Below, piece after piece: positions 59,662-64,000 of a stretch of 64,000 nucleotides of DNA. Position 1 is the first letter of the stretch, and every line of letters begins with the position of its first letter. A model generated the notes under the pieces. It was not told the DNA's origin, ran no database searches, and saw only the letters and a list, made by a program, of their open reading frames with translations. Source of the stretch: Sodiomyces alkalinus F11 (taxonomy: Eukaryota; Ascomycota; Sordariomycetes; Glomerellales; Plectosphaerellaceae); contig NW_021167084.1 of the NCBI RefSeq assembly GCF_003711515.1, positions 2,459,932 through 2,523,931 on the forward strand. Direction: 5' to 3'. The translations under genes were made by a program, and so were the position numbers.

Positions 59662-59904
59662 TGTCGCGGGCTGGACAGGACACAGGGGCAGTGATGGAAG
59701 GGGAACGCAGTCGAGAATTTGTCCGTCTCTGTTGTTGTAGCCAGGCAATTAATCGAAGTTAATGGTACTACGGACGAAATAGACCTCCATCCACAGGTGA
59801 TGTCAACGCAGCACAGGCCACCCGAAATTGGAGACAGTGAACCTCTCGGTGTCTAATTGCCCGAACAGGCCGTAAGGGACCTTTGGTAATTACAGTACCT
59901 AGGT

Positions 59905-61034
59905 GGTCCTAGTGTAGATTTAGCAATATTTGCTTTACACTTATCAGGGGTAAGTAGTTAATTAGGAGCCATGAACTTTATAACTACAATAATTAATATA
60001 AGAACACCCGAACAGCTGTTTTACTTTTACTATCTTTACCTGTTTTAGCTGGTGGAATTATAATGTTATTAACAGATAGAAATTTTAATACATTATTCTT
60101 CGAAGCAGCAGGTGGAGGTGATCCTATTTTATTCCAACATTTATTCTGATTCTTTGGACATCCTGAAGTTTATATCTTAACTATACCAGGATTTGGTATA
60201 ATAAGTACAACTATTTCAGCTAATTCTAAAAAACCAGTATTTGGATATATTAGTATGGTATATGCTATGATGTCTATTGGTATATTAGGATTTATTATTT
60301 GAAGTCATTATATGTATATAGTAGGATTAGACGTTGACATAAGAGCTTATTTCATAGCGGCTACTCTAATAATTGCTGTACCTACAGGAATTAAAATATT
60401 CTCTTAATTAGCTATATATTACGGAGGATTAATTAAATTAACACCTTCTATGTTATTTGCTTTAGGATTTATATTTATGTTTACTATAGGAGGATTAAGT
60501 GGTATTGTTTTAGCTAACGCTACACTTAATATAGCATTCCACGATACTTATTACGTTATAGCTCACTTCCATTATATTTTAAGTATAGGTGCTGTATTTA
60601 CTATATTTAGCGCTTAATATTTCTGAGTACCGAAAATATTAGGTTTAAATTATAATATGGTATTAACAAAAGTATAATTCTGAATTTTATTCATAGGAGT
60701 TAATGTTACTTTCTTCCCTTAACATTTCTTAGGGTTATAAAGAATACCTAGAAGAATAGGTGACTATCCTGATACTTATGCAGAATAAAATTTAATAAGT
60801 AGTATTAGATCTATTATTAGCGTTATAGCTACTTGACTATTCCTATATATTATATATATATAGTTAGTTAAAGCTAAACCTATAAGTAGAAATCCTTAAA
60901 AATCTGTAGAATTCTATACTAATACTTTATAAGCCTTATTAAATAGAAGTGCACTAAGTTTAGAATAAGTATTATCTAGCCCTCCTAAACCTCATGCCTT
61001 TATTAGTCTTCCTTTACAAAGTAATATATATTAA
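59905..61034 (+). pseudogene. cox1: cox1 pseudogene (cytochrome c oxidase subunit 1, C-terminal half)
   Basis: Read in code 4 (TGA is Trp): GPSVDLAIFALHLSG, then LFWFFGHPEVYILTIPGFGI, GLDVDIRAYF, HDTYYVIAHFHYILS and SSPPKPHAFISLPLQS. These are catalytic core segments of Cox1, with the helix VI (HPEVY) His and the HFHY heme ligands. At least ten in-frame TAA/TAG codons are present. By conserved neighbours most sit at Trp (KIFS-LA at 60405, FSA-YF at 60615, SLE-VL) or Gln (KV-FW, FFP-HF). Substitutions T to I (GLDVDTRAYF to DIRAYF) and M to I follow the same pattern. Between NIRTP and TAVLLL near 60009-60012 about 16 residues present in family members are missing with a frame change, so a short deletion also occurred. 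No introns remain, although the native gene often has several. Confidence 0.94.
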
Positions 61035-61489
61035 AATATAATTATTTAACATAAACATTTTTATTAAATAATTTGTACTAAAAATTTAACGATGCTTCTA
61101 TTTTATAATAAAAGAACCCAAATAAATCATTAATATTAGAATATAAAAAAATTACATTAATCACAAAATAACCTAGAATATTTAATAAAGTAAAATAATA
61201 TAAATAATAAACATTATAAACCGATATCTTTATCAGCTAGGCTGTAATATAAAAAATAATCTTCTAATCTATTATTTATATCATTAAATAATAATTTAAA
61301 TTCAGGATCAGAAGTTAAAGCAAGCCTATATAAATTTATTCTTATATATTATAATAGTTTATTTGCAATAAATATAGATAAGTAATAAAAAGTTTTTATA
61401 AAATATTTAATAATATTATATTAAATTAACTTTTTTAAGAATTTATAAAAATGTAATAGATATAGAAAATATATTTATATAAATATAAA
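61035..61489. other. AT-rich spacer of the NUMT with a possible reverse-strand frame
   Basis: About 450 bases between the cox1 copy and rnl. On the minus strand a stretch at roughly 61225-61360 reads as 44 codons without stop, YIRINLYRLALTSDPEF then KLLFNDINNRLEDYFLYYS and LADKDIGL. In DNA this AT-rich that is longer than expected, and the residue mix looks real. Beyond it stop codons appear as TAA. It may be a decayed mitochondrial ORF. Not assigned to any family. Confidence 0.35.
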
Positions 61490-64000
61490 GTATATAAAGA
61501 GACTATTATAGATGCCTAAGCTATATATTAACGAGTATAATTTATTTACCCTTATTTATTAATTAAAAATATATAACTTTTAGTTTATTAATTTAAATCT
61601 TTACTATAGTATTTTTAATAAAATATAAGATTAGAAATATACACTCTAAGAGAAATTAGATAGTTAACGAAGTGAATTAAAATATCTTAGTAACTTCAAG
61701 AAAAGAAATCAAAAGAGATTCTATTATTAACGTGAGCTAAAATAGAGTAGTCTATCTAATAAGTAAAACGGTCGAGAAACTATTTAAATTTAATGGGGAA
61801 CCTTCCTCAAAGACTAAATATAATATATAAGCGATAGTGAAGAGTATTATAAGAGGACGGTTAGAAATGGTAGTTTTATAAGCAGTTTAAGCGAAAGCAA
61901 GAACGTACCTTTTATATAATGGGTTACTAAGTTAATATTAGATACGAGTATAAACATAGGTAAACTAATCGTTAAAATAACGAAAAGTATCTAAAGTTAG
62001 ACCCGAAGCCTGGTAATTTTACTATAATTAGGATTATAAAGGTCCGAACGGGTTATCGTTATAAAGATATCCGAAGAATTATAGTAGGTAGTGAAAGATA
62101 ATACTAACCAGGATAGCTAGTTTTCTGCGAAAGCTATAATAGTAGGTAATTTAAATAATATCTTAGTAAGTATAGAACTTAATCTTAGTTAAGATATACT
62201 AAATTTATAAAATTTACATTTTTAATTTATATATATCGGGGAATCGTGAAGATTTTATCGATAAGTATATAGACTCGGAATAGTAAAGATGAATTTTGAA
62301 TTATCGGATATAGAATAATAAGGTTATATATCAAAAGGGAAACAGTCCAGAACAAGAGTTAAGGTTCTAAAACTATTAGTTAAGTGAAATTAAGAAGGTT
62401 TATATTAAAGTCGATAAGGAGATAGGCTTAGAAGCAGCCATAATTTAAAGATCTCGTAACAGAGCGCTTATTAAGTTTTAAAAGCATCGAAAATTTAACG
62501 GATCTAAATAATATACCGAAACCTTATCTATATATTTCTTTTTTTTTATCAAAATATATAGGGTAGCAGAACGTTAAATTAAATTAAGATATACTTATAA
62601 TATATATATAATAAATAATTCAAGTGACAATAGTGATATAAGTAACGAATAAGAAGGAGGTAGCTAAAATTAGTACCGATATATTGGTTATTGTTTACCT
62701 ACCTCCGCCTAAAGCTTATCGAAATTAAGTAACGGCCTCTAAGTTAAAAACCTAAAGGTTTTAACGATAAGAAAATTTTTTTTTACTGAAAAACAATATT
62801 TTTAAGTGAAAAATATACTAGAAAAATAGTAAAAATATATATTATTATAGTTCGATAATAGTATAATATATAACCGTATCTAGAGACTAATATAAGTAAG
62901 CTAGTAGAGAATACGAAGACGTTAATAAGCTAATAATCATAAAGGAACTCGGTAAAATAACTACCGTAACTTCGGGAGAAGGAGTGCTTATTAGTCCTAA
63001 TTAATATCGGGTAAAAAAGAAGAAGCATAAAATCGTATTATACGACTATTTAATTAAAATAAAGCACTTTGCTAAAAGATAATAAATCTAAGTATTAGGT
63101 ATGATATCTGCCCGATCCCGGCAGGTTAATAGATATAACTAAGTTAGGAATAATTTAGTATTAACGGAACCCCCGGTTAATAGCGGCCTTAACGTAAGGG
63201 TCTAAAGGTAGCGAAATACCTTAGCCGTTAAATACGGTCTTATATAAATAATATAACGATATAATAGCTATCTTTATAATTAACTTAGTGAAATTATAAT
63301 AACTATGCAGATATAGTTTACCTTTAATTAGATAAGAAGACCCTATATAGCTTTACTATTACTAATTATAGGATATAATAGATAAATATAAGTTTATAAG
63401 GTATATTAATTAAATAAAAATAAGAATCCTTTATTTAGACATTATATTTCAGAATCAGGCCTTAAATTTGAAATTTAAGGATTAACCTAATCTGGCTTAT
63501 ATTTATAGAAATATAAATATAAGTATAACCTTAGGAAAGGAATATATCGCTAGGAGATAGTTTATATAGGGCATAGGCCCCTTAAAGAGTAAAAGGGAGT
63601 GTCTATTTATTATAAGTTATAAAAATATATAATATTCGTTATTTATAGTTTTATAACGTTATTTATAGTTTTATATAGTTTAAGTGTTTATACACTTTCT
63701 ATATTTAATCCACTATAGGTATCTATAAGAGTATTATATACGTATAGATAAAGATAAGAACTTTATAAAGGTACGATTTTACCTATAAGGAAAATAGGAG
63801 TAGATAAGAAAATATTATAAGTATTCTAATATTTTTATTAGTTATTCTTAAAGAATGATTATATTTAATACTTAAAAAGCTCAACGGCTAAATCGTGTCT
63901 TACTATTGAATTAACAACAAGTCTTATAGTTATGTAAGCAGGGCACAGAATCATAAGATGCAAAAAGGAAAGATCTTGGATTATTAGAAAAGCTACGCTA
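61490..64000 (+). pseudogene. rnl: rnl copy (mitochondrial large-subunit rRNA), 3' end outside window
   Basis: Collinear with large-subunit rRNA from near its 5' end (GATGCCTAAGC at about 61515) through GAAAAGAAATCAAAAGAG (domain I), CCAGGATAGCTAG (near 62110), AACAGTCCAGAACAAGAG, TACCTACCTCCGCCTAA (near 62697), GGTAAAATAACTACCG (near 62951), ACGGAACCCCCGG (63159), GACCCTATATAGCTTTACT (63339) and AAAAAGGAAAGATCTTGG near the end. Mutated core positions: CCTATGCAGC has become CCTATATAGC and TAGCTGG has become TAGCTAG. The last bases stop just before the GGGATAACAGG segment of domain V, so the window cannot show whether the usual intron there (with rps3 in many fungi) is present. No intron is visible in the part shown. 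Confidence 0.92.

Follow-up and report, generated by a model that had tools for sequence, protein, structure and literature searches.

RIP acts before meiosis, turning C into T at CpA within duplicated nuclear DNA, and leaves different sites hit in each member of a pair. Transposon RIP is one of the two described systems closest to the locus reported here, the other being the insertions of mitochondrial DNA in the nucleus (NUMTs). The accessible parts of three papers on fungal NUMTs (PMC8672877, PMC2820518, PMC10512326) do not mention RIP on these insertions, and the first of them describes an AT-rich block, about 1,500 bp long, that holds three Trichoderma NUMTs of 139-170 bp. Literature on NUMTs or mitochondrial insertions together with RIP, including the accessible parts of PMC4994206, PMC12565556, PMC8496281 and PMC12543289 and with subscription journals mostly outside it, yielded no report of RIP on a NUMT. 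Like other NUMTs, the present locus places rRNA and protein-gene sequence of mitochondrial origin inside a nuclear contig, its edge being sharp and its genes incomplete; unlike them, it is strongly mutated, and this mutation is confined to CpA. With transposon RIP it shares C-to-T change at CpA on both strands and a genome that holds a RID homologue and RIP-marked repeats, whereas the DNA hit here comes from an organelle, has few copies in the readable assembly and is not as depleted as the repeats (index 0.52 against 0.10-0.24). The mutations are very probably those of RIP, and a NUMT as the target is an uncommon case of a known process, RIP itself being well supported.

The window is the whole 64,000-nucleotide stretch analysed from Sodiomyces alkalinus F11 (C6:2459932-2523931, where C6 is its contig in an assembly of 43.4 Mb and 22 contigs). 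An earlier note on this DNA had placed a mitochondrial insertion at 59901..64000, and such an insertion is present: the NUMT occupies 59905-64000 and 41 further bases to the contig end, has a length of at least 4.1 kb and runs from the cox1 3′ part through a spacer into rnl (Table 1). GC content in 1-kb windows falls from 53-61% to 19-28% from about 59905 onward, where the cox1 residues G-P-S-V-D... start; the tblastn match to the protein P0002 begins slightly earlier, with residue 159 at 59890, its first residues being a poor fit. Mitochondrial origin is evident from cox1, which is 80% identical to P0002 across residues 201-554 of that protein, and from a large-subunit rRNA match of 320 bits (Rfam RF02541). 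The nuclear setting follows from continuity in the assembly with a 2.52-Mb contig and from the adjoining WD40 gene, which is open, as had been said of the nuclear surroundings. Near the contig end rnl apparently enters an intron, at what we take to be an intron site, and the sequence common to this end and to a NUMT on contig C3 extends to the contig end. The usual mitochondrial gene order does not have rnl right behind cox1, and their succession here across a spacer of 12-17% GC may reflect either a rearrangement of the mitochondrial genes or a NUMT of composite make-up. A DNA search of the assembly gave no near-identical second match to the NUMT, hence no mitochondrial contig is visible in it.

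Table 1. Features of the NUMT and its nuclear neighbour (window positions)
Feature	Position	Strand	Description
Neighbouring nuclear gene, WD40-repeat protein	57883..59748	-	Open; listed from an upstream TTG, with an in-frame ATG at 59661
Cox1 fragment, nuclear/NUMT junction at its start	59905..60009	+	GPSVDLAIFALHLSG...NIRTP; one in-frame TAA; from reading frames
Internal cox1 deletion	60010..60011	+	16 residues (GIRLHNLALFGWAVVI) absent, 2 bases remain, about 46 bp net
Cox1 3′ part	60012..61031	+	Ends in NIY as P0002 does; stops at 5/10 Trp and 5/7 Gln codons
Stretch matching an 82-bp cox1 fragment on C11	60453..60530	+	84%
Cox1-rnl spacer	61032..61498	+	12-17% GC; visual inspection of six frames identified no gene
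Mutated rnl (mitochondrial large-subunit rRNA)	61499..64000	+	RF02541 at 61499-63296; extends 41 bases past the window, where the contig ends
Stretch with an unmutated nuclear copy, C1:1940765-1941407	62726..63365	+	89% identity
Stretch shared with the NUMT at C3:2289423	63864..64000	+	91%

As a reference, a fungal mtDNA relative was not found in viral contigs (2 pattern matches), and among the matches listed in genome contigs (80 loci) all titles were bacterial; older states were therefore taken from related proteins and sister NUMTs. For cox1 these were the closest proteins found, P0001 and P0002, which differ from each other at 4/340 positions. The fragment differs from them at 53 residues, from which 54 changes were inferred, and 44/54 are CpA/TpG to TpA when codon ties are resolved toward that change; without the residues also present in six other fungi the figure is 39/44. 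Counted by site, with the 4 positions at which P0001 and P0002 differ excluded, CpA/TpG was hit at 43/107 and other C/G at 4/152 (Fisher p 3e-15). The CpA/TpG hits fall on both strands (16/42 and 27/65), and the remaining ones are divided among CpT (3/91), CpC (1/51) and CpG (0/10). Few residue-changing substitutions of other types were seen, synonymous changes being mostly invisible to the protein comparison used for cox1 and for atp6 below. Natural differences between this mtDNA and that of relatives would be miscounted as hits, an error that the few non-CpA hits bound.

In rnl the 640-bp copy on C1 served as the older state, and CpA/TpG was hit at 26/40 sites against 12/172 others (p 1.6e-14; by strand, 4/10 and 22/30). 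With the window as the older state the counts were 2/14 and 6/164 (p 0.12), with no clear bias. Of these two overlapping rnl NUMTs it is the window copy that is mutated and the C1 copy that is not. The claim that CpA-to-TpA change affects both strands is thus borne out in cox1 as well as in rnl. The proportion proposed in support of RIP, more than 80% of C-to-T/G-to-A changes in CpA context, is exceeded in cox1 but not in rnl, where 26/38 such differences are of CpA type, and 26/72 of all differences, the 72 including a badly aligned poly-T stretch and changes in the C1 copy. The change from TGCA to TATA that had been noted in the rnl core is present: the window has TATA at the site where the C1 copy has CGCA, and we take TGCA to be the usual mitochondrial letters there.

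Further nuclear copies had been expected and were found on C1, C3 and C11, all NUMT lists here being lower bounds. The C3 copy as the older state (152 window bases compared) gave 6/17 CpA hits against 3/40 (p 0.015), and the reverse comparison 1/15 against 1/36; with an overall index of 1.00 this NUMT was dropped as a mutated partner. The C11 piece, too short to judge, gave 4/9 against 3/17. Together the readable copies, of 640, 137, 78 and 35 bases, cover 890/4087 of the window NUMT (about 22%), and the two largest, on C1 and C3, are little or not mutated. The unmutated rnl NUMT at C1:1940765-1941407 abuts an apparent coding region on its left and may have altered the end of that gene. The C3 NUMT, from about 2289422, comprises the end of rnl together with what looks like an intron reading frame, presumably rps3-like; it has a few stops and, by its index, little RIP, and it sits between apparently RIP-mutated retroelements. 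At C1:5720476-5721115 five short mitochondrial pieces (35-63 bp) in mixed orientations lie within 640 bases and match rnl, cox1, nad4 and atp6 regions.

The composite RIP indices, which the earlier note had proposed to compute, were less informative than the site counts. For 59914-64000, TpA/ApT was 1.29 and (CpA+TpG)/(ApC+GpT) was 0.52, while 500 shuffles gave 1.00 for each; yet the C1 rnl copy, itself unmutated, already scores 1.35 and 0.61. Since unmutated NUMTs in this genome also score below 1, the indices are weak alone and were set aside as main evidence. A dispersed repeat with 11 copies, Gypsy-like by eye, gave 1.63-1.84 and 0.10-0.24. Among the variable sites of its 11 aligned copies no CpA excess was found: C/T stood before A at 142 and before T at 143, and G/A followed T at 143 and A at 143. 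The copies may be saturated, so that this control backs RIP through the indices only.

A Pfam PF00361 search turned up three more NUMT places in the genome. A second large NUMT, of at least 3.8 kb, lies at C10:12523-16324 and holds part of nad4, atp8, atp6 and the start of rns, with atp6 called by homologues, rns by Rfam, and nad4 and atp8 presumed from domains or prior knowledge. In its atp6, CpA/TpG was hit at 30/46 sites and others at 0/97 (p 1.5e-19), the count being restricted to columns on which five relatives are unanimous and omitting one unreadable cell. For the C10 nad4 and atp6, the matches found in the rest of the genome are no more than pieces of about 37-63 bases. A 97% copy of the final 525 bases lies at C1:4477430-4477954, both being rns by Rfam, and the 17 differences of this pair comprise 13 of CpA/TpA type, 2 other transitions and 2 transversions. 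With C/G taken as older, the T/A state is in the C10 copy at 5 of the 13 and in the C1 copy at 8, a distribution that would fit RIP acting on a nuclear pair. The CpA/TpG density of the C10 NUMT rises again in about its last 800 bases, toward the nuclear junction, and the C1:4477430 rns NUMT continues beyond the fetched stretch (C1:4477301-4478100), where its rns match is cut.

A search for the cytochrome b family found nothing. Nearly intact frames were seen in NUMT fragments on C2 (presumably nad5), near C10:184 kb (nad4 5′ part) and on C4 (the cox1 5′ end, about 40 residues). Strongly RIP-mutated DNA adjoins the fragment at about 184 kb on C10 and comes within about 0.5 kb of the C2 fragment; the indices of these two fragments are 0.86 and 0.77, respectively. 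Overall, heavy mutation marks the two long NUMTs (at least 3.8 and 4.1 kb), and among seven shorter ones, of which several are too short to judge in what is a small sample, clear CpA-type hits occur only in C1:4477430.

The genome also encodes candidate machinery for RIP. A Pfam search gave three DNA methylase loci, on C7, C10 and C2. The C7 locus is a RID homologue, sharing 42% identity with a Colletotrichum protein that bears the name 'rip defective', and its aligned residues equal the S. alkalinus F11 record at 637/637 outside one 23-residue gap. The C10 locus encodes a BAH-plus-methylase protein, which we take from its domains to be of DIM-2 type, and at C2:4511312 there is a third DNA-methylase-domain protein beside the RID-like and DIM-2-like ones. 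S. alkalinus forms ascospores, according to the accessible part of PMC5706713.

RIP accounts for the restriction of the changes to CpA, for hits on either strand, for the NUMT pair and for the machinery. The mtDNA fragment, at least 4.1 kb with the cox1 3′ part and rnl, would have been inserted beside the WD40 gene in the nucleus and then mutated at CpA by RIP, with RID as the presumed agent. As to the trigger, duplication in the nucleus by overlapping NUMTs is the likely one, and the missing partner may reside in unassembled or unreadable NUMT sequence or may have been lost. The earlier note had likewise reasoned that the insertion was or is repeated in the nucleus. Such repetition is made likelier by the C10/C1 rns pair, which appears hit in both copies; against it, most of the window NUMT is without a readable partner, the 640-bp C1 partner is unmutated and the C3 copy has its index of 1.00. 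Telomere repeats mark one end of each of two contigs, the start of C6 and the end of C10; at the opposite end C6 carries the window NUMT, and C10 has its NUMT near its start. The two contigs could thus be the arms of one chromosome (C6 from telomere to NUMT, C10 from NUMT to telomere), in which a single NUMT longer than a mitochondrial genome, which would carry its own repeats, may have broken the assembly between them. Other contig arrangements are possible, telomere repeats having been seen at 4/20 contig starts inspected, with 4 unreadable, and far ends inspected only for C6 and C10. Alternatively, long NUMTs might undergo RIP without any lasting nuclear partner, the homology search of RIP pairing them with mtDNA itself or with mitochondrial fragments newly arrived in the nucleus ahead of meiosis. 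If a partner were always at hand and RIP required a minimum length, one would expect what is seen, heavy hits in both long NUMTs and clear ones in just one of the seven shorter; we regard this reading as very unlikely.

Explanations other than RIP on a duplicated NUMT were weighed against the same data. If the NUMT is single-copy, mutation could have spread into it from RIP-mutated repeats past the contig end through a Dim2/Dim5-dependent pathway, for which the genome holds its presumed DIM-2-type protein. In N. crassa such a pathway mutates single-copy regions flanked by repeats (accessible part of PMC12543289), and the cox1 hits of the window are sparsest next to nuclear DNA (60012-60161, 2/19), reaching 10/15 in 60762-60911. 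However, the gene adjoining the NUMT is open and the 250 bases between them have an index of 0.87, a value taken without a reference for comparison. Spread is made less likely by the C10 and C2 fragments, which are nearly intact although mutated repeats adjoin them or lie close by, and we hold it to be improbable.

Methylation of the DIM-2 type at CpA could itself yield C-to-T change, and slow decay would then consist of the deamination of methylated CpA cytosines over long times without RIP. The absence of non-CpA hits in the C10 atp6 (0/97 versus 30/46) and the few other residue-changing substitutions in cox1 point to a burst more than to clock-like decay, within comparisons to which synonymous changes are invisible, and leave this route little chance. 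A NUMT from elsewhere misjoined to the C6 end would agree with its place at the end of the contig and with a join seen in assembled sequence, without reads. The 10 stops at conserved Trp and Gln codons, on the other hand, are not those of working mtDNA, so that, whatever the join, some mutated copy must be present besides the functional mitochondrial genome, and an assembly artefact is scarcely credible as the explanation.

RIP on a NUMT, as preferred here, has several consequences. The site counts with their internal controls document that NUMTs can carry RIP, and RIP could limit how much mtDNA stays recognisable in fungal nuclei. Surveys of NUMTs by nucleotide similarity may accordingly undercount them in RIP-proficient fungi. 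As the unmutated original is kept in the mitochondrial genome, mutated NUMTs would give ancestral states and so a site-by-site measurement of RIP, and they make its action without a nuclear partner a testable question.
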